Below are positions 33,546-62,979 of a stretch of 64,000 bases of DNA, piece by piece (within the stretch, counting starts at the first letter, position 1; every line of letters starts with the position of its first letter). The DNA comes from an uncultured Bacteroidales bacterium. GTDB lineage: Bacteria > Bacteroidota > Bacteroidia > Bacteroidales > UBA932. Under the pieces are notes generated by a model. It ran no database searches. It had not been told where the DNA came from and saw only the letters and a list, made by a program, of their open reading frames with translations. The position numbers and the translations under genes are program-made. The stretch covers positions 186,001 to 250,000 of the forward strand of contig CAMVKH010000003.1 in the NCBI GenBank assembly GCA_947168065.1. Reading direction: 5' to 3'.

Positions 33546-34511
33546 ATGGCTTACACCTTCATGTTCTATAACCTGGAGAATCTCTACGATACCCTGGACG
33601 ATCCGTCCACGGACGACGACGAATACACTCCCATGGGCGACAAGCGCTGGACGCGCGACAAATACGAAAAGAAACTCTCCAACCTGAGCGAGATCTTCTC
33701 GGCCGTGTCCTCGGCGCACAACGGTTTTCCGGTCGTGGCGGGCGTTTCGGAAGTGGAGAACCTCAAGGTGTTGCGCGACCTGGTGGCCCAGAAGCGCATG
33801 TCGGGCGCCCACTACAAGTGCATCCATTTCGAGTCGAACGACGCCCGCGGCGTGGAGGTGGGCATGCTCTACCGTCCCGACAAGTTCACGCTGATGGGCT
33901 GCGAGCCGCTCAAGCTCGAGCTGCGCAGCGGTCGCGAATACATCGGCCGCGACATCCTCTCGGCCTGGGGCTCCATCGAAGGTGAGATGTTCGCTTTCTA
34001 CATCTGCCATTTCCTTTCCCGCCGGGGCGGAGTCGCTTCCTCGTCGGGTTTCCGCCGGGCCGGCGCCGAAACGGCCCGCGACCACGCCGAGGAACTGCGC
34101 AGGCAGTATCCCGACATCAAGGTGGTCATCATGGGCGATATGAACGACAACCCTTCCGACGAATCGCTCTCGGTGCTCCTCAGGGCCCACAAGACCATCT
34201 TCAACGTGCCCGAAGGCGAGTATTTCAACCCGTTCTGGATGCTGGCCGAAGAAGGGAAGGGCACCAGTATCCACAACCACCGCTGGGTGCTCTACGACCA
34301 GCTCATCGTGTCGTACAACATGCTGCCCACCTACCCGTCGCTCAAGGGTTTCCGCGTGGTGCGGCTTGACGGCAAAAACCACTACGGCGAGATCTTCTGC
34401 CGCAATTTCATGCTCCGCAAGGGCGCTCCGCGCCGCAGCTACTACGGCAACACCTTCGACAACGGCTACAGCGACCATCTCCCCGTGCTGATCAAGATCG
34501 ACAGGCGATGA
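33546..34511 (+). CDS. Endonuclease/exonuclease/phosphatase family protein
   Basis: This 321-residue protein opens with FMFYNLENLYD, the N-terminal Asn motif of the DNase I-like fold, and has the metal-binding Glu in GVSEVENLKVL, catalytic GDMNDNPSD and the terminal SDHLPVLIK His motif. All active-site positions are present. No signal peptide is seen, so it is cytoplasmic; many Bacteroidetes homologs are exported. Substrate could be DNA, a phosphoester or inositol phosphate. A TACATTTG box (33534-33541) ends 4 bases before the ATG, so the transcript is likely leaderless. It overlaps the HAD gene by ATGA. Confidence 0.88.
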   Translation: MAYTFMFYNLENLYDTLDDPSTDDDEYTPMGDKRWTRDKYEKKLSNLSEIFSAVSSAHNGFPVVAGVSEVENLKVLRDLVAQKRMSGAHYKCIHFESNDARGVEVGMLYRPDKFTLMGCEPLKLELRSGREYIGRDILSAWGSIEGEMFAFYICHFLSRRGGVASSSGFRRAGAETARDHAEELRRQYPDIKVVIMGDMNDNPSDESLSVLLRAHKTIFNVPEGEYFNPFWMLAEEGKGTSIHNHRWVLYDQLIVSYNMLPTYPSLKGFRVVRLDGKNHYGEIFCRNFMLRKGAPRRSYYGNTFDNGYSDHLPVLIKIDRR

Positions 34512-47479: not shown

Positions 47480-48214
47480 TCAGGCGACGAAGGCGAGGGT
47501 GGTGCAGCTGAGGCGGAAGGAGGAGGCGAGGAGCGAGGTGGCGCAGGCGGCGAGGGTGCTGCCGGTGGTCAGGACATCGTCGACCAGGAGGAGATGATGG
47601 ATGCCGTCGGCGTGGAGAGCGGCGGCGCGGCGGGGGTCGGTGCGGAAGGCACCCTGGACGTTGCGGGACTTGGCGGCGCCGCTCAGTTTTGTCTGTGTTT
47701 TCGTATAGCGGATTCGCCGAAGAAGATGCGTCTCGAGCGGCAGGCCCATCGCCTGTGCGATGCCTTTGGCGATCTCTTCGGCCTGGTTATAGCCGCGCTT
47801 CCAGCGTCGCAGCGGATGCAGCGGTACGGGGACGACGGCCTGGCAGCCGCTGAAGGCGCGGCTTTTCGCCAGACAGGTCCCCAGCAAGGCTCCCATCTGC
47901 CGGCCCAGGCGTTTCCGGCCGCCGTACTTGATGCCGTACAGGATCTTCCGATAATCGCTTTCCGCGCCGAAGAAGAACAGCGCCGCCGCATCCTCCACCT
48001 CGAACCGCCGCGCCAGCCGCTCGAACGCCGCATTCTGCACGATATCCCACTGATACGTCAACGGCAGCTCCTCCAGGCACGCCCCGCACAAATCCCGCTC
48101 ATCCATCCCCAAAAACTTCCTGCAAACCACACACCTCCGCGGGAAAAACAACTCCCGCAGTCCTTTCGCCGCCGGAATCAATTTGGTTTTAAGATTATGA
48201 TCAAATCCACACAT
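47480..48214 (-). CDS. ComF family protein (phosphoribosyltransferase fold)
   Basis: This 244-residue protein has an N-terminal cysteine cluster likely to bind zinc (CVVC, then CGAC about 16 residues later), the central KYGGRKRLGRQMG block, PVPLHPLRRWKRGYNQAE, and a PRTase-type PRPP loop LLLVDDVLTTGSTL. This is the ComF/GntX architecture; in competent bacteria ComF helps bring single-stranded DNA into the cytosol, but many carriers are not known to be competent. ATG 48214 is preferred over 48241 by family N-terminus. It is divergent from the PNPOx-fold gene. Confidence 0.88.
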   Translation of the reverse strand: MCGFDHNLKTKLIPAAKGLRELFFPRRCVVCRKFLGMDERDLCGACLEELPLTYQWDIVQNAAFERLARRFEVEDAAALFFFGAESDYRKILYGIKYGGRKRLGRQMGALLGTCLAKSRAFSGCQAVVPVPLHPLRRWKRGYNQAEEIAKGIAQAMGLPLETHLLRRIRYTKTQTKLSGAAKSRNVQGAFRTDPRRAAALHADGIHHLLLVDDVLTTGSTLAACATSLLASSFRLSCTTLAFVA

Positions 48215-48272
48215 ATCTCTCGCCTCGATAGTTTGATGCAAGGTAGGGCTTTTTTATGAAAGGGCAAAATCG

Positions 48273-48711: not shown

Positions 48712-48805
48712 CGGCCGATGAGGGCGGAGCGGCGGGTGGTTTTTGGGCTGGACGGCATTTTTTCTGCCGGCCAGAACAAAAACCAGAGCCAGCGGAGCCC
48801 GGACG
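48712..48805. repeat. Right member of the inverted repeat pair with palindromic core
   Basis: This 94-base element begins at the base after the PNPOx-fold stop codon. Flanks 48712-48737 and 48785-48805 are reverse complements of the flanks at 47323-47348 and 47257-47277. The core (48738-48784) matches the other core in direct orientation, with a six-T instead of five-T loop and two substitutions. A long-form dispersed repeat follows 5 bases later. Confidence 0.85.
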
Positions 48806-48810
48806 ATGAC

Positions 48811-48897
48811 GAGATTCCCGGGTCAAGCCGGGACCCGAGCGAAGCGAGAGCCGCAACCAAAGGGAGCGAATGACGAGAGAGTCAAGCCGGGAATGAC
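48811..48897. repeat. Long form of the dispersed palindromic repeat (copy A)
   Basis: The first 65 bases (48811-48875) match 51687-51750 inside mutS2 with a single-base insertion as the only difference. The unit starts with GATTCCCGG and contains TCAAGCCGGGA, then a CGAGCGAAGCGAG segment, and closes with a second TCAAGCCGGGAATGAC (48882-48897). Its first and last parts together form the short palindrome seen at 9805-9829. It ends just before the cdaA promoter. Confidence 0.85.
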
Positions 48898-48908
48898 GAT
48901 TTTTTTGT

Positions 48909-48916
48909 TATCTTTG
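48909..48916 (+). promoter_or_regulatory. -7 box of cdaA-mutS2
   Basis: TATCTTTG ends 7 bases before the cdaA ATG at 48924. It lies 11 bases downstream of repeat copy A. Confidence 0.6.
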
Positions 48917-48923
48917 TACGAAT

Positions 48924-49703
48924 ATGTTCGATTTCATAGACATATCATTCATCGATGTGCTGGATGTGCTGATGGTCGGCTTGCTGATCTATTGGCTGAT
49001 CCGGGTGGTGCGCGGTACGTCGGCGGTCAATATCTTCCTGGGCGTCCTGCTGCTCTATGTCATCTGGATCGCTTCGCGGGCGCTGGGGATGAAGTTGCTC
49101 TCCTTCATTCTGGGACAGGTGCTGGGCGTAGGAGTCGTGGCGCTGCTTGTGATCTTCCAGCCGGAGATCCGGCGCTTCCTGCTGCGCATCAGTTCGAGCA
49201 CGACGGTGGCGCAGAAAGGCTTCTTCAACAAGTTGTTCCGCCATACGAAGACAGGCGGCATGCAGTCTCATGAGCTGGAAGAACTGACGGCGGCTTGCCG
49301 CAAGATGGCCGAGACCAGGACCGGCGCCCTGATCGTGCTTCGGCACGGATCGGCGCTGGCCGACATCATCGACACGGGCGACGAAATCGATGCCCGCATC
49401 AACCGACGCCTGATCGAGAATATCTTCTTCAAGAATTCCCCGCTCCACGACGGGGCCATGATTGCATCGGAAGACCGTATCCTGGCAGCCCGCTGTACGC
49501 TGCCCATCACGCAGCGGCAGGATATTCCGGCCCATTACGGCATGCGCCACCGCGCCGCGATCGGTATTTCGGAGGTCTGCGATGCCTCTGTCATCGTGGT
49601 TTCGGAGGAGACGGGCGACATCTCCTTCGTATCGGGCGGGCAGATCAAGACCATGGAAAGTATCACGGAACTTCGCCTGGCCATCGAGAATTCATACAAA
49701 TAG
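48924..49703 (+). CDS. cdaA: Diadenylate cyclase CdaA
   Basis: This 259-residue membrane enzyme makes the second messenger c-di-AMP from two ATP. Three N-terminal transmembrane segments (about residues 14-80) are followed by the DAC domain with its two signatures DGA (residues 176-178) and RHR (208-210, MRHRAAIGISE). c-di-AMP controls potassium and osmolyte uptake and cell-wall homeostasis. It is 15 bases ahead of mutS2 and probably co-transcribed; no CdaR-like regulator is next to it. Confidence 0.95.
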   Translation: MFDFIDISFIDVLDVLMVGLLIYWLIRVVRGTSAVNIFLGVLLLYVIWIASRALGMKLLSFILGQVLGVGVVALLVIFQPEIRRFLLRISSSTTVAQKGFFNKLFRHTKTGGMQSHELEELTAACRKMAETRTGALIVLRHGSALADIIDTGDEIDARINRRLIENIFFKNSPLHDGAMIASEDRILAARCTLPITQRQDIPAHYGMRHRAAIGISEVCDASVIVVSEETGDISFVSGGQIKTMESITELRLAIENSYK

Positions 49704-49718: not shown

Positions 49719-52286
49719 ATGGTGCTGGAACAGAAAATCGGCTTTGACAAGGTTCGCGAGAAAATCGCGGCCAAGTGCGCCACGCAGTATGCGGCGCGCA
49801 AGGTGGCCGCGGAGCAGATCTCGCACGACGGCGGCGAGATCATGTTCCGGCTCCGGCTGACCGACGAGATGCGCCTGATCTGTCTGTTTGAAGACAGCTT
49901 CCCGGCCGGCGGCTATCACGACACGAAAGCCTTCCTGCTGCCCCTGCAGGCCGAGAACACGAGCATCGACCTGCCTTCGATGCGCATCCTGCGCACCAGC
50001 CTCGACACCCTTCGCCGCATCCTGGCCTTTTTCCGCGAGTGCAAGGACGACCTGTATCCCACGCTCCGGCAGATTTCCGCGTCGGTGAGCTACGAGCCCG
50101 AGATCGGGCGGCGCATCGAGGCGATCCTCGACCGCAACGGCGAGGTGCGCGATACGGCTTCGCCCGAGCTGGGCGAAATCCGCCGGGCCCTCCGCTCCAA
50201 GGAGGGGCAGGTGTCCCGCCGGATCGGCAGCATCCTCACCCAGGCCAAGAGCGAGGGACTGGTCGATACCGAAGCGGAAGTGGTGGTGCGGGACGGACGG
50301 GTGCTCATCCCGATCCCGGCGGGCAGCAAGAAAAAGCTGCCCGGCATCGTCTATGACGAATCGGCTACCGGCAAGACAGCCTTCGTCGAGCCGCTCGAAA
50401 TCGTGGAGCTGGAGAACCAGATCCGCGAACTGCAGTTCGACGAACAGCGCGAAATCGCCCGTATCCTGATGGAGTTCACGGAGTTCCTGCGTCCGTACCT
50501 GGGCGGCCTCATCGCTGCCTCGGAATACATCGGCGAGATTGATTTCATCCGCTCGAAAGCCCTTGTGGCCCTTGATATGATCGCCGGCATGCCGATCCTG
50601 TCGGACAATGGGGAACTGAACTTGCGCCGGGCCCGGCATCCGCTGCTGGAGGCCTCGCTGCGCCGGGAGAAGAAAGAGATCGTACCGCTGACCCTGTCGC
50701 TGAACAAAGAAAAGCACATCCTGCTGATCTCCGGCCCGAATGCGGGCGGTAAATCAGTGTGCCTCAAGACCGTAGGTCTGCTCCAGTATATGTTCCAGTG
50801 GGGTATGCTCATCCCCACGTCCGAGGTGAGCGAGATGCTGATCTTCGACAGCATCTTCATCGACATCGGCGACGACCAGTCGCTGGAGAACGACCTGAGT
50901 ACCTACAGCTCCCACCTGCAGAACATGCGGGAGATCCTCACGCACGCCACCGCCTCGTCGCTCGTGCTGATCGACGAATTCGGCAGCGGCACCGAGCCGG
51001 CAGCCGGCGGCGCCATCGCCGAGGCCGTGCTCTCGCGCCTCGACGAGATGGGCGCCTACGGCGTGATCACCACCCACTACACGAACCTGAAACTTTACGC
51101 CGACAAGAGTTCCGGCGTGATGAACGGCGCGATGCTCTTCGACGGTGCCGCCATCAAGCCGCTCTTCCAGCTGCAGCAGGGTATGCCGGGCAATTCCTTC
51201 GCTTTCGAGCTGGCGCGCAAGATGGGCCTGCCGGCCGAGGTGGTCAAGGACGCCGAAGAGCGGGCGGGCAGCGAATTCGTCAACATCGAGCGCAATCTGC
51301 GCCAGATCGCCCGCAGCCGCCGCGTCCTCGACGAGAAGCTGGCCCGCATCAAAACCACCGACAAGACGCTCGAGAGCCTGACCGACAAGTACCAAAAAGA
51401 GCTGGGCGAGGTCAAAGCGCTGAAAAAGAGCATTCTGGAAGAGGCTAAAAAGGAGGCGCAGGAGATCCTCGACAGCGCCAACAAAGAGGTGGAGCGCACC
51501 ATTCGCGAGATCCGCGAAGCCCAGGCCGACCGCGACAAGACCAAGGTCGCCCGCGAGAACCTGAGTAAGTTCAAGGAAGGGCTCCGGGAGGAAAAACCCA
51601 GCGAGAACGACGCGGTGATCGAGCGCAAGATGCAGCAGATCATCGCGCGCAAGGAGCGGGAGCGGGCAAGGAAGGAAAAACGGGGCGAGATTCCCGGTCA
51701 AGCCGGGACCCGAGCGAAGCGAGAGCCGCAACCAAAGGGAGCGAATGACGGAAGTCAAGCCGGACCGGAAGGGAAAGAATCCCGGAAGGAGAAGGCGGCC
51801 GTCGACAATTCACCGCTGAAGGTGGGCGACAAGGTGCGGCTGAAGGACAACGACATGGTGGGCGAGGTGACGCAGGTGGCGGCCAAGTATGTTTCGGTGT
51901 CGGTGGGCAGCATCATCTCGAAACTGGCGCCCGGAAAGGTGGAAAAGATTTCCAATCAGCAGTATAAAGACAAGACCCGCAGCACTTTCCGGCCTGTCAT
52001 CCATTACGACAGCGAATCCATCAGCCGGCGGAAGCTCGATTTCAAGCCTACGATCGACATTCGCGGCGAGCGCCTCGCCGATGCCCTGGACATCGTGATG
52101 CACTTCATCGACGATGCCACGATGGTGGGTGTCGGGCAGGTGAAGATCCTCCACGGCAAGGGCAATGGCGTGCTGCGCGAGGAGATCCGCAAGTACCTGA
52201 AGACCGTGCCGGCGGTCAAGTCGTTGCGCGACGAAGCCGTCCAGCAGGGCGGGGCCGGCATCACGGTCGTCGAAATGGACATTTAG
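49719..52286 (+). CDS. mutS2: MutS2-type ATPase/endonuclease with an in-frame palindromic repeat insert
   Basis: This 855-residue protein has the MutS2 order: helical core (1-330), ATPase with Walker A GPNAGGKS (339-346), Walker B region LVLIDEFGSGTEP, a long coiled coil (about 515-655), a KOW-like segment (LKVGDKVRLKDNDMVGEV) and a C-terminal Smr nuclease domain (about 780-855; IDIRGERLADAL, LHGKGNG). MutS2 suppresses recombination and helps rescue collided ribosomes. Residues about 657-678 (IPGQAGTRAKREPQPKGAND) are encoded by the dispersed repeat seen also at 48811, placed in the flexible linker between coiled coil and KOW. The frame stays open. Confidence 0.93.
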   Translation: MVLEQKIGFDKVREKIAAKCATQYAARKVAAEQISHDGGEIMFRLRLTDEMRLICLFEDSFPAGGYHDTKAFLLPLQAENTSIDLPSMRILRTSLDTLRRILAFFRECKDDLYPTLRQISASVSYEPEIGRRIEAILDRNGEVRDTASPELGEIRRALRSKEGQVSRRIGSILTQAKSEGLVDTEAEVVVRDGRVLIPIPAGSKKKLPGIVYDESATGKTAFVEPLEIVELENQIRELQFDEQREIARILMEFTEFLRPYLGGLIAASEYIGEIDFIRSKALVALDMIAGMPILSDNGELNLRRARHPLLEASLRREKKEIVPLTLSLNKEKHILLISGPNAGGKSVCLKTVGLLQYMFQWGMLIPTSEVSEMLIFDSIFIDIGDDQSLENDLSTYSSHLQNMREILTHATASSLVLIDEFGSGTEPAAGGAIAEAVLSRLDEMGAYGVITTHYTNLKLYADKSSGVMNGAMLFDGAAIKPLFQLQQGMPGNSFAFELARKMGLPAEVVKDAEERAGSEFVNIERNLRQIARSRRVLDEKLARIKTTDKTLESLTDKYQKELGEVKALKKSILEEAKKEAQEILDSANKEVERTIREIREAQADRDKTKVARENLSKFKEGLREEKPSENDAVIERKMQQIIARKERERARKEKRGEIPGQAGTRAKREPQPKGANDGSQAGPEGKESRKEKAAVDNSPLKVGDKVRLKDNDMVGEVTQVAAKYVSVSVGSIISKLAPGKVEKISNQQYKDKTRSTFRPVIHYDSESISRRKLDFKPTIDIRGERLADALDIVMHFIDDATMVGVGQVKILHGKGNGVLREEIRKYLKTVPAVKSLRDEAVQQGGAGITVVEMDI
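51687..51750. repeat. Dispersed palindromic repeat inserted in frame in mutS2 (copy B)
   Basis: This 64-base block is identical to 48811-48875 apart from one missing G. It lies in the linker of the mutS2 reading frame and is followed by a diverged second TCAAGCCGG (51754-51762). The neighbouring coding sequence resumes Lys/Glu-rich linker on both sides, as if the element had been inserted there. Confidence 0.9.
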
Positions 52287-52643: not shown

Positions 52644-53885
<1,242 letters not shown>

Positions 53886-53956: not shown

Positions 53957-54019
53957 GATATTCTTTTTCAGAAACAAAAAATATTGATACCTTTGCACGG
54001 ATATTCCAACGTGTATTCG

Positions 54020-56086
54020 ATGAAAGCCGTCAGACTGCTGATCTGCCTTGCCGCAATGGCGTCCCTCCTGGTTTCGTGCCATGAGCCCGAGCCTGAGAAA
54101 GAGCCGGTTACGGTATCTGTCTCCCCTTCATCCCTGTCGTTTGGCGCCGAAGGAGGGTCAGCCGCGCTCAACGTTTCTTCCAACGGATTGTGGTATGCCC
54201 GCGCCGATGCATCGTGGATCAACCTCTCTTCCACCTCCGGTTCCGGCGCCGCGACCCTGCAGGTAACCGCCTCTCCCAACAGCGGTGACGCCCGCACCGG
54301 CACGATTACCTTCGAGACCTCCGACCAGACGGCTACGGTCAGCGTTTCCCAGCTGATGTTCGTCAAGGCCGATCCGGTCCAGAAGACCATCCGCGAAGTC
54401 CGCGCCCTCTACCCGGGCAAAGATTACACGATCACCGAGGATATCTTTGTGGAAGGACTGGTAATCAGCGATTACCGTCGTGATACCGACGGCGGCCTGA
54501 ACAACTACTCCTCCGCCAAGACCATCATCATCTCCGACGGCGACGCCGGCCTGATGCTCTACTGCAAGGCCGACAACAAGACTTTCGCCCGCGGCCAGCG
54601 GGTGCGCGTGAACCTCAAGGACCAGATCCTTTCGGTCTATGCGGAAGGCGCCATCCAGGTAAACGGGCTTCCGCTCGACAACATCCTTTTCCTGGGCACG
54701 GCCACGCCCGAACCCAAGACCATCACGGTCGAGCAGCTCCTGACCGGTGAGTATGAATGCACCTACGTAGCCATCAAGGACGTGCAGGTCCGCTCCGAGT
54801 ATATGGGCAAGACCTTCTACACGGCCGCTGACAAAGGCACGATCGGCTTCGAAGACGCTTCCGGCCGGCAGTTCGACCTCTTCACTTCGCAATATGCGAT
54901 CTTCGGTGCGGACGCCGTCCCTACGGGCAGCGGCACGCTCAAGGGCATCGCCGGCAAGTATTCTTCCCGCATCCAGGTAACCATCTCGGATAAAAACGAC
55001 TACGCCGGTCTCACCGGTGCCCGCTACGATACGGGCAGCTATTTCTCGCTCAAGCAGACGGAAGCCTCCGTCAGCGGCGACGCCGGCTCGTTCAGCGTCC
55101 TGCTTGCGGCCAACGTGCCCTGGAAGGCCTCCTCATCCCATTCCGACTTTACCGTGACGCCCGCTTCCGGCCAGACCGGCGGCGTGGTATCCATCGCATA
55201 TACGGAGAACCCGAGCACGAGCGAGTCCCGTTCGGCCGTGATCACCTTCACGACCGAAGACGCGTCTGTCAGCACGAAGGAACTCCGCTTGACGCTCACC
55301 CAGCAGCCGCTGGAGGCCCTGGTCGAGAGCCAGGTGCAGCCTTGGCTGGAGCTCCCCGCCGTCAAGAAGGAGGAGGGGAAGGGTTTCTTCAGCCACGACA
55401 TGACCTTCAACGACCAGCTGGTGCGTAACTACTCGTTCTGGTACGACCTCTCGAACCGCGTCTCCCTCTGGGTGGCCTATCCGCTCTATGACGGATTGAC
55501 CCGGGGTACTTCCCGTACCGACAAGTGGGATTACGATCCGATCGTCCCGCGCCGCTACCAGGGCGACGCCTCGCGCAGCTACACGGGCTACGACCGTGGC
55601 CACCAGCTGCCTTCGGCCGACCGTCTCTGCAACGCCGCGGCCAACGAGCAGACCTTCTACTTCACCAACATCACGCCGCAGAACGCCAATCTCAACCAGG
55701 GCATCTGGGAGACGCTGGAGTCACAGGTGCGCGGGCTCGTTTCCAGCTGCGACACGCTCTACGTGGTCACGGGCTGCGTGCTCACCACGGCGAATGATAC
55801 CGATATCCAATATGTGAAAGACGTGCAGGGCCGCGACGTGGCGGTGCCCAAGGCCTACTTCAAAGCGGTGCTCCGCTACAAGGCCGGCGAGGCCAACGGC
55901 GGCTATTCGGCCATCGGCTTCTGGCTCGAGAACAAGAGCTACGGCAGCCAGGTCATCAGCCGCAGCCAGGCCTTCAGCGTGGCCGAGATCGAGAAACGTA
56001 CCGGCTTCGACTTCTTCCACAACCTGAACGATACTTATGAAAAAGAGGCAGAGTCGAAATACGACCCTGCCGCATGGGGACTATAA
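54020..56086 (+). CDS. Lipoprotein with BACON, DUF5689-type and NucA-like nuclease domains
   Basis: This 688-residue lipoprotein starts at 54020 (lipobox LVSC, Cys20, then HEPEPEKEP, an acidic stretch compatible with surface display). Domains in order: BACON (about 28-112; LSFGAEGGSAALNVSSNGLWYARADASWINLS), DUF5689-type OB-like region (about 118-330), a second BACON-like sandwich (about 335-440), and a DNA/RNA non-specific endonuclease (about 445-688). The nuclease has the DRGH motif (Asp525-His528) and FTNITPQNANLNQGIWETLE, the Asn/metal region of the NucA/Serratia nuclease family. The promoter is TACCTTTG at 53988-53995. The next gene is an Oar-like TonB receptor 43 bases downstream. Confidence 0.88.
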   Translation: MKAVRLLICLAAMASLLVSCHEPEPEKEPVTVSVSPSSLSFGAEGGSAALNVSSNGLWYARADASWINLSSTSGSGAATLQVTASPNSGDARTGTITFETSDQTATVSVSQLMFVKADPVQKTIREVRALYPGKDYTITEDIFVEGLVISDYRRDTDGGLNNYSSAKTIIISDGDAGLMLYCKADNKTFARGQRVRVNLKDQILSVYAEGAIQVNGLPLDNILFLGTATPEPKTITVEQLLTGEYECTYVAIKDVQVRSEYMGKTFYTAADKGTIGFEDASGRQFDLFTSQYAIFGADAVPTGSGTLKGIAGKYSSRIQVTISDKNDYAGLTGARYDTGSYFSLKQTEASVSGDAGSFSVLLAANVPWKASSSHSDFTVTPASGQTGGVVSIAYTENPSTSESRSAVITFTTEDASVSTKELRLTLTQQPLEALVESQVQPWLELPAVKKEEGKGFFSHDMTFNDQLVRNYSFWYDLSNRVSLWVAYPLYDGLTRGTSRTDKWDYDPIVPRRYQGDASRSYTGYDRGHQLPSADRLCNAAANEQTFYFTNITPQNANLNQGIWETLESQVRGLVSSCDTLYVVTGCVLTTANDTDIQYVKDVQGRDVAVPKAYFKAVLRYKAGEANGGYSAIGFWLENKSYGSQVISRSQAFSVAEIEKRTGFDFFHNLNDTYEKEAESKYDPAAWGL

Positions 56087-56129
56087 CAACTATTTACTAT
56101 ACCTAATTATTTAACTTTTAAGAGCCTTT

Positions 56130-59100
56130 ATGAAAAAAACATTGAAGTGTTTTCTGGCTGCAGCAGCTTTCCTGCTGATGATTTTCCCGGCCATGGCACA
56201 GGTGACCACCTCGAGCCTCGCCGGCCAGATCGTCGATGAAAACGGCGAGCCTCTCATCGGTGCGGCAGTCATTGCCGTCCACACCCCTTCCGGCACGCAG
56301 TATTATGCCGTGACCAACGAAGACGGTCGCTATGCCATCCAGGGTATGCGTACCGGCGGTCCGTACGAAGTCACGATGTCGCTGATCGGTTGCCAGACCG
56401 TCGTTTTCCCCGACATCGTCCTTTCGCTGGCTGAGACGTATCAGCAGAACGCCGTGCTGAAGACCAGCACCGAGCTTCTTGCCGAGTCGATCGTCGTCGC
56501 CTCCGCTTCTTCGAAGTTCTCCACCGAGAAGACAGGTGCAGCCACCAACATCAACAATTCGCAGATCGTCAACCTGCCGAGCGTCTCGCGTTCCGTTACG
56601 GACGTGACCCGTCTGTCGCCGTACGGCGGCAACGGCATGAGCTTCGCCGGTAGCGACGGCCGTCTGGCCAACTTCACCGTTGACGGTGCGAACTTCAACA
56701 ACAACTTCGGTCTGAGCTCCAACCTCCCGGGCGGCGGCAACCCGATCTCCATCGACGCCATCGAAGAGCTCCAGGTCGTGATCTCGCCCTACGACGTCCG
56801 TCAGACCAACTTCATCGGCGGTGGTGTGAACGCCATCACCAAGTCGGGTACGAACACCTTCAAGGGCAGCGCCTACGTCTATCACCGCAACGAGAACATG
56901 CGCGGTGACACGGTCGAAGGCGAGCAGATCGGCGGCGCCCGCGCCAAAGACCGTTCGACGACCTACGGCTTCACCGCCGGCGGCCCGATCATCAAGAACA
57001 AGTTGTTCTTCTTCATCAACGGTGAGTATTCCAAGGTTCCGACGGTGGTCAACCGCTGGCAGGGTTCCGCCAACGGCGTAGCCGACCCGACCAACTACAT
57101 CTCCCGCACCCGTCTGGCCGACCTGCAGCGCGTGTCCGATTTCGTGAAGAGCAAATATGGCTATGACACGGGTTCCTGGACCGACTTCCCGGCCAACGAG
57201 AACAACATGAAGATCCTGGCCCGCATCGACTGGAACATCAGCAGCAAGCACAAGCTGGCCCTGCGTTACAACTACACCCGCAACAACGTGTGGAACTCGC
57301 CCAACGGTTCTTCGATGGACGGTGGCACGCGTATGTCCGGCGCCCGTATGTCGCAGTATTCCATGTCGTTCGCCAACTCGATGTATTCGATGAACAACCT
57401 GGTGAGCACCTGGTCTCTCGACCTCAACAGCCGTTTGACCGACAACCTGTCGAACCAGTTCCTGGCTACCTTCTCCAAACTCGATGACGTCCGCGGCACG
57501 AACTCCGACCAGTTCCCGTTCATCGACATCCTCGACGACACCCAGAGCAACAACTACATGGCCCTCGGTTATGAGCTGTTCACCTGGAACAACGCTGTCC
57601 ACAACACCATCGCCAACGTGAAGGACGATATCACCTGGTACAAGGGCGCCCACAAGGTGACCGCCGGTATCAGCTACGAGTACCAGATGGCTGACAACCA
57701 GTATATGCGTAACGGTACGGGTTACTACCGCTACCGTACGGTCGATGACTTCCTCAACGGTGCCGCTCCGGAAGTGGTCTGCTTGACCTACGGTTACGAC
57801 GGTGAGCAGTATCCTGCCGCCCGCGTCCAGTTCCACAAGGCCGGTATCTATGCCCAGGACGACTGGAACATCAACGACCGCTTCAAACTGACCGCCGGCA
57901 TCCGCTTCGATGCCCTGATCTTCGACAACGGCGACCTGATGACCAACAAGGCCATCTACGACCTGAACTACTATCCGAAGAAATATGACTACCAGGAGAC
58001 GCACATCGACACCGGTAAGTGGCCTACCTCGAAGGTGACCATCTCGCCGCGCGTGGGCTTCAGCTGGGATGTCTTCGGCGACAAGAGCTTCAAGGTACGT
58101 GGCGGTACGGGCCTCTTCTCGGGCCGTCTCCCGCTCGTGTTCTTCACCAACATGCCGACCAACGGCGGTCTGGTGCAGTATCAGGCACAGATCAACGCCC
58201 GCAACGCGGCTTCCCGCGGCTTCACGATGGACGAATTCGCCGGTGGCCTGGTGACCGATTCCCAGGGCAAGGCTACCATCGAGGCCCTCTACAACAAGCT
58301 GATCAAACTCGGTTATCCGAGCACGGTCCGTCCTGAGGACGGTACGGTTCCTTCCGCCGTCAACGGCGTGGATCCCAAGTTCAAGATGCCGCAGGTCTGG
58401 AAGAGCTCCATCGCTTTCGACTTCAGCCTCCCGACCTCCTTCCCGTTCACCTTCTCGGCTGAAGGTATCTTCAACAAGACCATCAACGCAGTCGCCATCT
58501 CCGACTGGAGTATGAAGGATGTGGCCGGTTTCGCCCGCTTCAACGGCGTCGACAACCGTCCGATCTATCCTGCCGGCTTCCGCAATGCCACCAAGGCCTT
58601 CGTCCTGGAGAACACCGATAAGGGTTACGGCTGGAGCGCCAGCGCCCAGGTCAACATCCGCCCGATCGAGAGCCTGAGCTTCATGGCCGCCTACACGCAT
58701 ACCGTGAGCAAGGAAATCACCGGTATGCCGGGTTCGGCTGCCGAGTCTGCCTTCACCTATGTGCCGACCAACGAAGGCCCGAACTACATCAAGCTGCACA
58801 ACTCGCAGTATGTGACGCCGGACCGCGTGGTTGCATCCCTGACGCACCACGACAAGAGCGGCAACCACTACAGCTTCATCTATGAGGCCTGGCGTGGCGG
58901 CTACAACTACAGCTACATGACCACCAACGATATGAACGGTGACGGCTACAACTACGACGCCCTCTACATCCCGACCGAGGATGAGGTCTCCAGCCGCCAG
59001 TTCCGCTTCGTCTCGATGGACGACCAGAACCGTTTCATGGACTTTGTCCGTCACGACAAGTACCTGAGCAAGCACATGGGTCAGTATGCGGAAGGTTACA

Positions 59101-59432
59101 GCGTCTACAGCCCGTGGGTCCACCGCGTTGACCTGAGCTACAAGCACGACTTCACCGTGAAGTGCGGCAACAACACCAACACGCTGCAGCTCTGCCTCGA
59201 TGTGAAGAACGTCCTCAACCTGTTCAACTCCAGCTGGGGTGTGAGCAAGTACCTCAACCCGGAAATCGGTTCCGACGCCCGTATCCTCAAGTATGAAGGT
59301 GTCGACGCCGACGGTTACGCTACCTTCTCCACGCCGAAGGCGGTCAGCGGCTCCACCGCTACCTTCGTTCCGAACCACGGAATCGGCCAGTGCTGGTATG
59401 CTTCTGTAGGTATCAAATATCTGTTCAACTAA
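56130..59432 (+). CDS. Oar-like TonB-dependent outer-membrane receptor
   Basis: This 1100-residue receptor has a signal peptide (to PAMAQ, about residue 24), a carboxypeptidase-regulatory domain (about 28-115; SSLAGQIVDENGEPLIGAAVIAV), a plug (about 118-235; SVTDVTRLSPYGG, FTVDGANFNNNFGL) and a large barrel that starts FIGGGVNAITKSGTNTFKGSAYVYH and ends SVGIKYLFN. This is the Oar/OmpA-type layout, distinct from SusC. Codon use is unusually uniform (GGT, CGT, AAC, GAC), as for a very highly expressed protein. It lies between a nuclease lipoprotein and an OB-fold lipoprotein, so nucleic acid fragments or nucleosides are candidate ligands (inference). Confidence 0.92.
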   Translation: MKKTLKCFLAAAAFLLMIFPAMAQVTTSSLAGQIVDENGEPLIGAAVIAVHTPSGTQYYAVTNEDGRYAIQGMRTGGPYEVTMSLIGCQTVVFPDIVLSLAETYQQNAVLKTSTELLAESIVVASASSKFSTEKTGAATNINNSQIVNLPSVSRSVTDVTRLSPYGGNGMSFAGSDGRLANFTVDGANFNNNFGLSSNLPGGGNPISIDAIEELQVVISPYDVRQTNFIGGGVNAITKSGTNTFKGSAYVYHRNENMRGDTVEGEQIGGARAKDRSTTYGFTAGGPIIKNKLFFFINGEYSKVPTVVNRWQGSANGVADPTNYISRTRLADLQRVSDFVKSKYGYDTGSWTDFPANENNMKILARIDWNISSKHKLALRYNYTRNNVWNSPNGSSMDGGTRMSGARMSQYSMSFANSMYSMNNLVSTWSLDLNSRLTDNLSNQFLATFSKLDDVRGTNSDQFPFIDILDDTQSNNYMALGYELFTWNNAVHNTIANVKDDITWYKGAHKVTAGISYEYQMADNQYMRNGTGYYRYRTVDDFLNGAAPEVVCLTYGYDGEQYPAARVQFHKAGIYAQDDWNINDRFKLTAGIRFDALIFDNGDLMTNKAIYDLNYYPKKYDYQETHIDTGKWPTSKVTISPRVGFSWDVFGDKSFKVRGGTGLFSGRLPLVFFTNMPTNGGLVQYQAQINARNAASRGFTMDEFAGGLVTDSQGKATIEALYNKLIKLGYPSTVRPEDGTVPSAVNGVDPKFKMPQVWKSSIAFDFSLPTSFPFTFSAEGIFNKTINAVAISDWSMKDVAGFARFNGVDNRPIYPAGFRNATKAFVLENTDKGYGWSASAQVNIRPIESLSFMAAYTHTVSKEITGMPGSAAESAFTYVPTNEGPNYIKLHNSQYVTPDRVVASLTHHDKSGNHYSFIYEAWRGGYNYSYMTTNDMNGDGYNYDALYIPTEDEVSSRQFRFVSMDDQNRFMDFVRHDKYLSKHMGQYAEGYSVYSPWVHRVDLSYKHDFTVKCGNNTNTLQLCLDVKNVLNLFNSSWGVSKYLNPEIGSDARILKYEGVDADGYATFSTPKAVSGSTATFVPNHGIGQCWYASVGIKYLFN

Positions 59433-59448
59433 TTAGCAAGACTGCGAT

Positions 59449-60948
59449 ATGAAAATCAAGAATATCCTTGTTTCCCTCGTTGCCACTTTGGCTCTCGCAG
59501 CCGGTTGCAACCAGCTTGAACCCGATCACTATCTCAGTGAAGTGAAGGTATCTTCTTCCTTCGTGGCCCTCAATATGGACGGCGGCTCCACCAGCATCAC
59601 GGTCGATGCGACGGAAGGCTGGTCCATCCCTACGGCTCCCGACTGGCTGACCATCAGCCCGACCTCGGGTGGCGCAGGTTCCGCGAACGTCACGTTCTCC
59701 GCAGGCAAGACGCTCGATGGCCGTACGGCTACGGTCGTCATCAACTGCGGTGGCAAGACCCAGAACATCAACATCATCCAGGGCCTGGCAGTGGTTTCCC
59801 CCGCTACCTGCGCCGAGGTGATCGCCGGTCCGGACAGCAAGACCTACCGGGTGACCGGTATCTGCACCAGAATCGCCAACACCAACTATGGCAACTGGTA
59901 TCTCCAGGACGCTACCGGTGAGATCTATATCTACGGTACGGTCGATGCCACGGGCAAGTACAACTGGGCCAGCTTCGGTATCGAAGTCGGTGACGAAGTG
60001 ACCGTCGAAGGTCCGAAGACCACCTACAGCGGTACGGTCGAGCTCGTCGACGCTTCGGTCATCAAGGTCAACAAGAGCCTCATCAAGGTCGCCGAGATCG
60101 ATCCGGAAAGCGCCGAGCTTCCGATCGAAGGTGGCGAATTCACCGTGAAACTCTCCAACAAGGGCTCGGGCGTGTATGTCGATGTCCCGGCTGATGCAGC
60201 CTCCTGGCTCTCCATCTCCTCGATCGCCGGCAATACCGTGAAGTTCAACGTTGCGCCCAACGAAGGCGGCGACCGCGCTACGACGATCGTCTTCAAGACC
60301 ACCGACGGCAAGAAGCAGTATTCCACCGAGCAGGCTATCTCACAGAAGGGTGCCATCATCGCATGCCCCATCGCCGACTTCCTCGCCGCTGAGGTAGGCA
60401 ATACCCAGTATCGCCTCACCGGTATCATCACCAGCGTGGCCAACGCCAGCTATGGCAACGTTTACATCCGCGACTGGTCGGGTGAGGCCTATGTCTATGG
60501 CATCGGCGCGAAGGGCGACTTCGAGAAACTCGGCCTGAAACCTGGCGACATCGTTACGCTCGTAGGCAAGCGCGGTGAGTACAAGGGCTCTGCCCAGATG
60601 ACCGGCGCACAGTTCGAAGACGTGATCCCCGTGACGGAAGTCAGCATCGCCGACTTCCTCACCAAGGAAGACAGCAAGGATGTGTACTATATGGTGAGCG
60701 GTGTGATCGATGAGATTGCCAACGACACGTACGGCAACCTCTACATCAACGACGGCGCGGGCAACCGCCTCTATGTCTATGGCTGCTACTCGGGTTATGG
60801 CGCTTCCGGCGACAACCGCAAGGGCTTCCTCGCAGAGGCAGGCATCGCTGTCGGCGACCAGTTGACGATGATCGGCTACAAGGATACCTACAAGGGCACC
60901 ATCGAGCTCTGCGGCGGTATCTACTTCAGCCACGTTCCGGCGAACTAA
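59449..60948 (+). CDS. BACON lipoprotein with three OB-fold-like repeats
   Basis: This 499-residue lipoprotein has lipobox AAGC (Cys20), a BACON domain (about 30-108; SSFVALNMDGGSTSITVDATEGWSI) and three repeats of an OB-like module: TYRVTGICTRIANTNYGNWYLQD, QYRLTGIITSVANASYGNVYIRD and YYMVSGVIDEIANDTYGNLYIND, each followed by a YVYG and a GDxxTxxGxKxxYKG strand. A second BACON-like sandwich lies between repeats 1 and 2 (about 210-300). OB folds often bind nucleic acids or oligosaccharides. It starts 16 bases after the Oar-like receptor and ends at a strong terminator. Confidence 0.82.
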   Translation: MKIKNILVSLVATLALAAGCNQLEPDHYLSEVKVSSSFVALNMDGGSTSITVDATEGWSIPTAPDWLTISPTSGGAGSANVTFSAGKTLDGRTATVVINCGGKTQNINIIQGLAVVSPATCAEVIAGPDSKTYRVTGICTRIANTNYGNWYLQDATGEIYIYGTVDATGKYNWASFGIEVGDEVTVEGPKTTYSGTVELVDASVIKVNKSLIKVAEIDPESAELPIEGGEFTVKLSNKGSGVYVDVPADAASWLSISSIAGNTVKFNVAPNEGGDRATTIVFKTTDGKKQYSTEQAISQKGAIIACPIADFLAAEVGNTQYRLTGIITSVANASYGNVYIRDWSGEAYVYGIGAKGDFEKLGLKPGDIVTLVGKRGEYKGSAQMTGAQFEDVIPVTEVSIADFLTKEDSKDVYYMVSGVIDEIANDTYGNLYINDGAGNRLYVYGCYSGYGASGDNRKGFLAEAGIAVGDQLTMIGYKDTYKGTIELCGGIYFSHVPAN

Positions 60949-60968
60949 ACAGCTACGCCTGAATCTCA

Positions 60969-61004
60969 GAAAGGACGATCCCTCGTGGGTCGTCCTTTCT
61001 TTTT
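60969..61004 (+). terminator. Intrinsic terminator of the nuclease/Oar/OB-fold operon
   Basis: A 10-base perfect stem (GAAAGGACGA at 60969-60978 with TCGTCCTTTC at 60990-60999), extended by CCC/GGG inside the loop, is followed by five T residues (61000-61004). This is a textbook intrinsic terminator 20 bases after the stop codon. Confidence 0.92.
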
Positions 61005-61118: not shown

Positions 61119-61185
61119 ACTGTTGTAAACAACTGATTGTCAATTGCGTCCGTTGCAGCGAAAAAAGTGTTATCTTTGTGGAACC

Positions 61186-62979
61186 ATGAAAAGAATATTC
61201 CTTCTGACCTTCCTGCTGCTTGCGCTGCCGATGGCGGCGCAGGTGACGACGGCCTCGATCGGCGGCCGCGTCGTCAATGAGAACGGCCCGCTTGAGGGTG
61301 TGACGGTAGTGGCTATCTATCAGCCGACCAACGCGCAGTATTACGCCACGACCGACCGCCATGGCTGGTACCAGCTCCTCGACGTGCAACCGGGCGGCCC
61401 CTATACGGTCAGGATTTTCTATATCGACAATAAACCGCTGACGGTCAGAAACCTATATACCTATTCCGGACAAAACACCCTCATCGACGCCGATCTGGAC
61501 GCCGGCACGACGCAGGTCCGTGTCGACGAGGCGGCCACTTCGCTTCGGCTGGGCCGGGACATGGGCGGTGGCGCGGTGCCCGTCTCTCCGCTGGGCTTCG
61601 ATCTGGTCAGCCAGCGGATCTACTCGCCGGTGGTCTTTGACGTACGGCAGGAAGCGCCGCTCGCAGGCGCGGCGCAGCAGTGGACGGTTCCCACCGGCGC
61701 CAATACCTTCCACGGCTCAGCCTATGGCTTTTATGGGATGGGGATTATGCCCGATGCGTATTCTTCCTATGCTCCTCCGGAGGGCCTGCCTGAAACGATC
61801 CGTCAATTGGGTCTTGGCGGCCTGACGCTGGCTTTGCCGCTCGGGAGCGAAGACTATCAGCTGTTTGGCGGCGTGGAGTATGGGACTGGCGGTTTGAGTG
61901 CGGCGGGTCGCTTTGACGGGCGGATCAATTCGGAGAATCGGCTGGAGATTTCGGGCGGCCGGCTGGCCGGGGGCCTGGGGGCCGCGGCCGGCGGAGCCGG
62001 CGCGGCTGGGCCGGAGGCCTGGGCGGCCGCGGCCTTCACCTCGCTGTTGGGCGAGCGCTCGTCCAACCGGGCGCAGGCCGGTTGGTACGGCTCGCCGATG
62101 GCGCGCCAATTGCGGCTGGCCGACGATTATACGCTGGCGGCGGGCCCGCAGCGGCTGCTGGCGGGCTTTCAACTTGCCCACCAAAACTTCCTGGCGGTCG
62201 ATTCGGCGGCTACCCGTTTCGACTTCTATCTGCAGGATGTCGTACGTCTTGGTCGCCGTATGACGATCCTCGGCGGCGTACGTTTCAGTTTTCCCTTCGC
62301 TTTCTCGCCGCGCCTGAGTCTCAACTATGATCTGCTGGGCAATGGCATTCTGGTGATGCGGGCCGGTACGGCCGTCTATGGCCGCCACGGCGAAGGTACC
62401 ATCTGGAAGAATCTGGCCGCAGTCGACACGCGGCTCCCGCTCGACATCCGTCTTACGCTCGAAGGCATCCTCGGCCAAAGCTGGCAGAAAGCCTTCCATA
62501 TCTCCAAACGCAATGTCCTCGACAGTCACTATGCGCTGACGGCTCGTCTCGAACGGCCTTTCTCGGATAATTTCTGGGCCCTGGCCTCCTATACGCACAG
62601 CGACGGGATGCCCTTCAACTGCCTTTCCGACAACGCCATGCAGGCGGCTGCCCTTACGCAGGGCGACCGCCCGGTCCGCGACCGCCTGATGGCCGGCTTC
62701 TCCTATAAAGTCGCATACCTGAGTCGGCTGGCCACGACCCTGGCCGTCTTCTACGACGGCTGCAATTTGACCGACAACCTCTCGCCGGCCTCCTTCTCCT
62801 GGCAGAACAACTACGAAGCCCGTCTTTCTCAAGACATTATCTTCTCCGCTGCCGGCCGCGACCATACCCTCCAGCTCACCGGCTATGTCCGCCGCGGCCC
62901 TTCTGTTGTACCTACCGTCTCTACCGGAATCACCGCACCGACCACCACCTTCCTCGTCGGTCTGCGCTATTTCCTCTGA
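61186..62979 (+). CDS. Shortened Oar-like outer-membrane protein with reduced plug domain
   Basis: This 597-residue protein is a diverged paralog of the receptor at 56130. The N-terminus aligns closely (VTTASIGGRVVNENG against VTTSSLAGQIVDENG, then AQYYATTDRHGWYQL), and TGANTFHGSAYGFY matches the barrel start SGTNTFKGSAYVYH. Between these the usual plug of about 110 residues is reduced to about 48, without the VDGAN-type motif. A Gly/Ala-rich insert (about residues 262-285) lies in the barrel part, which ends LVGLRYFL. The start at 61186 gives the signal peptide; a TATCTTTG box ends 7 bases upstream. It may be a passive pore or decaying receptor. Confidence 0.75.
   Translation: MKRIFLLTFLLLALPMAAQVTTASIGGRVVNENGPLEGVTVVAIYQPTNAQYYATTDRHGWYQLLDVQPGGPYTVRIFYIDNKPLTVRNLYTYSGQNTLIDADLDAGTTQVRVDEAATSLRLGRDMGGGAVPVSPLGFDLVSQRIYSPVVFDVRQEAPLAGAAQQWTVPTGANTFHGSAYGFYGMGIMPDAYSSYAPPEGLPETIRQLGLGGLTLALPLGSEDYQLFGGVEYGTGGLSAAGRFDGRINSENRLEISGGRLAGGLGAAAGGAGAAGPEAWAAAAFTSLLGERSSNRAQAGWYGSPMARQLRLADDYTLAAGPQRLLAGFQLAHQNFLAVDSAATRFDFYLQDVVRLGRRMTILGGVRFSFPFAFSPRLSLNYDLLGNGILVMRAGTAVYGRHGEGTIWKNLAAVDTRLPLDIRLTLEGILGQSWQKAFHISKRNVLDSHYALTARLERPFSDNFWALASYTHSDGMPFNCLSDNAMQAAALTQGDRPVRDRLMAGFSYKVAYLSRLATTLAVFYDGCNLTDNLSPASFSWQNNYEARLSQDIIFSAAGRDHTLQLTGYVRRGPSVVPTVSTGITAPTTTFLVGLRYFL

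Follow-up and report, generated by a model that had tools for sequence, protein, structure and literature searches.

A nuclease lipoprotein, an Oar-type barrel and an OB-fold lipoprotein form a candidate nucleic-acid acquisition locus in an uncultured Bacteroidales bacterium

We analysed a 64,000-nucleotide stretch of DNA, here called the window, from an uncultured gut bacterium of the Bacteroidales (GenBank assembly GCA_947168065.1, contig CAMVKH010000003.1, positions 186,001 to 250,000 of the forward strand), whose genome, designated G000, is 77% complete and 2.02 Mb in size. Three consecutive plus-strand genes of the window, named A, B and C, encode a lipoprotein with a NucA-like nuclease domain, an Oar-type TonB-linked barrel and a lipoprotein with three OB folds. 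We read them, with a probability of about 50%, as a surface module for nucleic-acid acquisition that cuts, holds and imports nucleic acid for use as a nutrient. In such a module the tethered nuclease A would cut DNA or RNA near the cell, and C, paired with B, would hold nucleic-acid strands or pieces of them at the entrance of B; TonB-powered B would move the fragments into the periplasm, and their breakdown there would supply phosphate, nitrogen and nucleosides. Cutting by A is well grounded in its enzyme family. Fold, pairing and company suggest holding by C and import by B; that B and C take nucleic acid as their ligand, that import depends on TonB and that the products serve nutrition is proposed in the same conditional sense, and the locus may be a main nutrient route, as a preliminary description of it suggested.

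We read the locus as belonging to a wider modular set in the Bacteroidota, made up of CarboxypepD_reg barrels, OB or DUF5689 lipoproteins and extracellular nucleases. The protein pair that Riemerella anatipestifer requires to undergo natural transformation appears to be one branch of this set. The locus bears on how Bacteroidota, named as widespread DNA degraders in PMC8289736, bring DNA or pieces of it through the outer membrane; the word TonB does not occur in the main text of that paper.

Gene organization and transcript signals

The features of the locus are as follows (window coordinates).

53988 to 53995, plus strand: TACCTTTG, a match to the promoter element TANNTTTG, 24 bp ahead of gene A
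54020 to 56086, plus strand: gene A, lipoprotein BACON-DUF5689-BACON-Endonuclease_NS, 688 amino acids (Pfam and reading)
54380 to 55000, plus strand: DUF5689 domain of A, residues 121-327 (PF18942, E 3.3e-30)
55418 to 56032, plus strand: NucA/Serratia/EXOG-type nuclease domain of A, residues 467-671 (PF01223, E 1.6e-46)
55592 to 55603, plus strand: DRGH motif of A, residues 525-528
56130 to 59432, plus strand: gene B, Oar-type TonB-linked barrel, CarboxypepD_reg plus OMP_b-brl_4, 1100 amino acids (Pfam)
59449 to 60948, plus strand: gene C, lipoprotein BACON-OB-BACON-OB-OB, 499 amino acids (Pfam and structure model)
59791 to 60087, plus strand: OB1 of C, residues 115-213
60352 to 60945, plus strand: OB2-OB3 tandem of C, residues 302-499
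60968 to 61000, plus strand: intrinsic terminator 3' of C (free energy -22.7, z -5.75)

The intergenic gaps are 43 bp between A and B and 16 bp between B and C. A direct fold of the region 3' of C revealed a hairpin of -22.7 kcal/mol, equalled by none of 200 shuffles, for which the terminator scan has no entry; coordinates, gaps and hairpin agree with the three genes ending at one terminator that had been described. The element TANNTTTG, presumably the Bacteroidetes -7 element, has 28 matches in the window where 9.5 are expected, including a further one within A at 54442, and none was found in either gap. Because a match precedes A, the gaps have none and a strong terminator follows C, the three genes are most likely a single transcript. 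The high codon adaptation ascribed earlier to B and C was confirmed: among 29 window genes picked by hand B ranks 2nd (0.806), C 3rd (0.757) and A 12th (0.698), on an index built from seven ribosomal genes of G000, which themselves score 0.555-0.837.

Domains and folds of the three proteins

Gene A encodes a lipoprotein, with Cys20 assigned by reading, in which Pfam matches Endonuclease_NS at 159.2 bits (cut-off 23), DUF5689 at 106 bits (cut-off 28.6) and BACON twice. The nuclease domain is complete and carries DRGH where the preliminary description had placed it. Residues R526, G527, H528, N550, N559 and E567, some of which we take to be catalytic, are invariant in all 24 aligned nucleases linked to B-C loci (linkage is defined below), and the aspartate of DRGH (525) varies among them. 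Fold matches of the domain are EXOG, NucA and Serratia nuclease, at E about 1e-15 to 1e-14. The whole protein also gives a partial match of 29.9 bits, far under the cut-off of 475, to the NCBIfam M949_1556 lipoprotein model, a DUF5689 lipoprotein family that takes its name from M949_1556 of R. anatipestifer. A is assembled from pieces of a family that a distant relative seems to need for natural DNA uptake.

Gene B is matched by CarboxypepD_reg (65.3 bits, E 6.7e-18) and by OMP_b-brl_4 (172.9 bits, E 1.5e-50), which we take to be of the Oar type, and on these two matches B is an Oar-type barrel; its TonB plug match is weak and under the cut-off. The Oar-like assignment made earlier therefore holds; 1100 amino acids is an ordinary size for such receptors. 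Solved structures searched with the B sequence gave no match. We also considered B as a member of the family of barrels of about 910 amino acids described below and rejected this for want of full-length homology, only the signal and the CarboxypepD_reg part aligning; neither B nor the downstream gene D matched a model of 13 class-level barrels of that family at E 10. A carboxypeptidase regulatory-like protein of Prevotella ruminicola is among the detected rumen metaproteome proteins (PMC7035244).

Gene C is matched by BACON (E 6e-19) and, weakly and under the cut-off, by an OB family (tRNA_anti-codon), and its Cys20 is invariant (37/37). The structure model (mean predicted local distance difference test score 88.9) has OB topology three times, at about residues 115-213, 302-395 and 396-499, as the three OB-like repeats reported before would require. 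Structure comparison matched these folds to HIN-200 and RPA, and Foldseek with C listed chiefly Ig-like repeat proteins; the OB reading follows from the model topology and the HIN-200 and RPA matches, not from the Foldseek listing. Aromatic residues are conserved in the OB domains. Searching solved structures with the C sequence returned, at E 0.001 or better, only BACON-bearing glycosidases (GH5, GH16). C as a remote DUF5689 protein was also tried and rejected (profile comparison, 19% probability over 74 columns). Long C-like proteins stand ahead of the nuclease in some clusters (L072:12139-15315, 1059 amino acids; L289:1696-3750, 685 amino acids).

Linkage of B, C and nucleases across genomes

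A scan with B gave 422 confirmed stretches, of which the best 80, with B at least 69% identical over the best segment, were kept; this set leans to close kin, and neighbours were counted over all reading frames. C lies directly 3' of B on the same strand, at 3-62 bp, in 78 of the 78 loci that could be tested, the other two (L041 and L104) ending within 145 bp of B, and across these loci B-C is a defined receptor pair. At the breadth of the order, sampled as one genome per family (119 genomes), 35 genomes contain B at E 1e-60 and 3 contain C at E 1e-20, each time directly after B; in the other 32 of the 35 C was not found at that threshold. Distant members of the B barrel family mostly stand without C, and most of 20 more distant Oar loci with full gene lists have no labelled partner. 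The co-occurrence called for in the preliminary description is therefore complete for B and C in close loci and lapses across the order.

In the 53 loci with 3 kb or more of flanking sequence at each end, a nuclease was scored as linked if it shared the strand and lay no further than 6 kb away. Endonuclease_NS is linked in 24 of these, EEP in 11 (by a model that includes one frame, in L182, that is probably not EEP) and either in 25. In 13 loci Endonuclease_NS immediately precedes B; 11 of these genes also encode DUF5689, and the other two are contig-end fragments. Elsewhere Endonuclease_NS sits after C. The linked Endonuclease_NS domains are variously fused to DUF5689 (gene A), to BACON plus a C-like OB unit (L053, 120 bits to the C-family model) and to choice-of-anchor J (L044).

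We placed 59 nuclease domains in a tree, where a single branch parts the 41 linked from the 18 unlinked ones (Shimodaira-Hasegawa-like approximate likelihood ratio test, SH-aLRT, 88, not starred), and the A-type nucleases form a branch with SH-aLRT 98, starred. The linked set here comprises nucleases linked to B-C or to a cluster of the 910-residue barrel, one of them (L056_8833) on the opposite strand, and the unlinked rows, which include the source genome's own second copy, were picked by distance from B and from that barrel. From the linkage counts, the fusions and the tree, the nuclease has been associated with these loci through evolution and is optional for B-C; the linkage is real and lineage-bound, to the window's group and its kin. 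The second, unlinked Endonuclease_NS nuclease (G000:C5, locus L259:8807-9619) is on the other branch of the tree, and many members of the genus carry it.

Outside the window's class the same parts keep company. At least 12 of the 65 phylum-sample genomes with both genes have an Oar homologue within 5 kb of a DUF5689 gene, against about 0.6 expected at a rough rate; at most three B candidates were scored per genome, and all 12 lie outside the class even though the 65 include genomes within it. Two Oar-adjacent DUF5689 genes that were scanned (L190, L255) are DUF5689-EEP nuclease fusions. For DUF5689, a family of unknown function, the A-B-C locus suggests a role beside nucleases.

Relation to the Riemerella transformation pair

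Markerless mutants of R. anatipestifer in RA0C_RS04915, a CarboxypepD_reg barrel, or in RA0C_RS04920, which has DUF5689 plus DUF5017/choice-of-anchor J, lose transformation; PMC8459023 describes the pair as having no counterpart in known uptake machinery and the barrel as found, in that study, only in Flavobacteriaceae. Our DUF5689 search gave 17 loci in the window's class, from genomes that are probably flavobacteria-like, and gene-list reading places a barrel of about 850-960 amino acids (the 910 barrel) just before the DUF5689 gene in 16 of them. Among nine DUF5689 proteins scanned, two exceed the NCBIfam M949_1556 lipoprotein cut-off (717 and 753 bits) and the other seven match the model under that cut-off; choice-of-anchor J is over its cut-off in five and DUF5017 in two. 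An EEP nuclease adjoins many of these barrel-DUF5689 pairs. As predicted from their sequences, the DUF5689 partners resemble the published Riemerella architecture, and from domains, order and adjacency we infer that the 910 barrel family is that of RA0C_RS04915.

Five Bacteroidales 910 barrels score 674-975 bits against the model of 13 same-class barrels and are 27-38% identical to three same-class barrels, so that presumed full-length homologues of the Riemerella-type barrel, with DUF5689 partners, are now in hand from Bacteroidales. Both sorts of module share one cluster in L247, a relative from the window's family, where B, C, Endonuclease_NS, EEP, the 910 barrel and DUF5689 follow one another on one strand, beside a gene that by its sequence resembles metK, which neighbours the locus in the window too; B of this locus is distant (35% identical). 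L289 has the order C-like, Endonuclease_NS, EEP, 910 barrel, DUF5689, and the 910 barrel lies on the same strand in 9 of the 80 closer loci as well. These shared clusters, together with the nuclease-DUF5689 and nuclease-OB fusions, strengthen the nucleic-acid theme. Across 37 genomes of the window's genus, A is present in 16, the 910 barrel in 6 and both in none (2.6 expected; p 0.023, a value that ignores ancestry and missing genome parts), as if the two substituted for each other within the genus; in G000, which is 77% complete, no 910 barrel was found.

A wider reading, which we hold as possible and more tentatively than the acquisition module itself, is a phylum-wide parts kit for outer-membrane import of nucleic acid without a pilus, in which Oar or 910 barrels, OB or DUF5689 lipoproteins and nucleases would be reshuffled. 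The Oar-OB version of gut Bacteroidales would feed, the 910 version of Flavobacteriia would transform, and A-B-C would replace the 910 cluster.

The competence genes of the genus bear on the choice between these uses. In the genus, 33 of the 36 genomes other than G000 have a ComEC Competence domain, which lies in frames of roughly 350-500 amino acids (for example L287:1663-2703 and L288:1742-2821) many of which end within the domain match; in the rest of the order the frames are mostly 527-771 amino acids (707 in L291). The domain was not found in G000, at 77% completeness. Since ComEC is shortened in the genus, the locus more likely serves nutrition than transformation. A comF-like gene lies on the minus strand at window 47480-48241, 6 kb from A; its zinc ribbon alone matched Pfam, at 1e-5, and the name ComF is by reading.

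Weighing of alternative explanations

Several results weigh against nucleic-acid acquisition. Neither Endonuclease_NS nor EEP was found within 6 kb in 28 of the 53 loci, 12 of which are titled Prevotella, Prevotellaceae or Muribaculaceae, so the nuclease linkage sought in relatives is present in 25 loci and was not seen in the rest. The OB domains of C are acidic, a charge that speaks against nucleic-acid binding; of the proposed kinship with nucleic-acid binders, the fold resemblance to HIN-200 and RPA stands and the charge disagrees. M949_1556 of R. anatipestifer is cited for O-antigen biosynthesis and antigenicity in PMC5294843 and PMC12566107, and on these citations the DUF5689 lipoproteins may act in surface make-up. 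The nuclease-free loci and the acidic OB domains, as well as the codon adaptation of B and C above that of A and the presence of BACON in glycan-cutting enzymes (GH5 and GH16 in the PDB), would suit B-C as a major receptor for some other nutrient, such as a glycan, peptide or cofactor, with the nuclease as an independent neighbour. We consider this rather unlikely, because the linked nucleases group on a single branch, L053 joins a nuclease to a C-like BACON/OB unit, and Oar genes adjoin DUF5689-nuclease fusions outside the class.

Import of DNA for natural transformation, in the manner of the Riemerella pair, appears improbable. It would account for the domains and clusters held in common with that pair and for the comF-like gene of the window, and mutation of tonBA or tonBB in R. 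anatipestifer does lower its transformation frequency, an effect that in the case of tonBB the authors ascribe to iron shortage (PMC8383284). Against it stand the short ComEC frames of the genus, the failure to find ComEC or the 910 barrel in the 77% complete G000 and the expectation that a tethered nuclease would cut incoming DNA. We give still less credence to a nuclease that acts in defence or biofilm control, on extracellular DNA, traps or phage DNA and with no import: extracellular nucleases play such roles elsewhere (PMC6085458), and this would leave unexplained both why a TonB-linked barrel and an OB lipoprotein share a tight operon with the nuclease and why linkage is confined to one branch. 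For the acquisition module that we favour, the joint capture and import first suggested for these genes is partly supported, the fusions and shared clusters speaking for nucleic acid and import by B keeping its conditional standing.

Comparison with known systems

By its parts the locus is nearest to the Riemerella pair, and by its layout to Sus systems. Like A-B-C, the Riemerella pair forms an operon that encodes both a CarboxypepD_reg outer-membrane barrel and a DUF5689 protein. It differs in that its barrel, at about 910 amino acids, is probably of another family than B, whereas here the DUF5689 protein bears the nuclease and stands before the barrel, and an OB/BACON protein is the partner that follows it. 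Sus-like systems likewise combine in one operon a TonB-linked barrel, a partner lipoprotein and a surface lipoprotein enzyme; A-B-C has neither a SusD-like domain nor a glycosidase, and B matches the Oar-type model instead of SusC/RagA. Up to E 1, Pfam finds no SusD family (PF07980 or kin) in A, B, C or D, in keeping with the Sus-like order without SusD or glycosidase noted in the preliminary description, and without SusD the identity of the locus as a Sus system is ruled out.

Like the NucA/Serratia/EXOG endonucleases, A holds a complete domain with conserved RGH, but unlike them it is a tethered lipoprotein with BACON and DUF5689 ahead of the nuclease. Nucleases of the ExeM/NucH type differ from that of the A-B-C operon; EEP and an ExeM-like lamin-tail part recur in related clusters, and to our knowledge the known ExeM/NucH enzymes have no barrel partner. 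Every single domain of A, B and C is already known, and we place the locus among the TonB-linked surface acquisition loci, of which it is a new variant; searches, which covered mainly the open literature, returned no description of it.

Neighbouring genes and other features of the window

Two further genes flank the locus.

52644 to 53885, minus strand: metK, divergent, a synteny marker
61186 to 62979, plus strand: gene D, short CarboxypepD_reg barrel-like protein, 597 amino acids (Pfam)

Gene D, which the preliminary description passed over, as it did DUF5689, has its own TATCTTTG at 61171, past the terminator of C, and is part of the wider locus outside the A-B-C transcript; its barrel match is weak. 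Relatives of D occur near C in 10 of the 13 A-type loci, two of them on the opposite strand, and the stretches of the remaining three end too soon to show D. A second B paralogue sometimes stands between C and the D relatives (L035, L040, L049).

An EEP nuclease gene lies 20 kb upstream of the locus at window 33546-34511 (PF19580, 277.7 bits), and an EEP gene is found about 12-23 kb from B in several members of the genus. Peptides like PGQAGTRAKREPQPKGAND occur in an intergenic frame at 48743-49273 and, in frame, inside a MutS2-Smr protein (49719-52286), as if an inserted short dispersed repeat.

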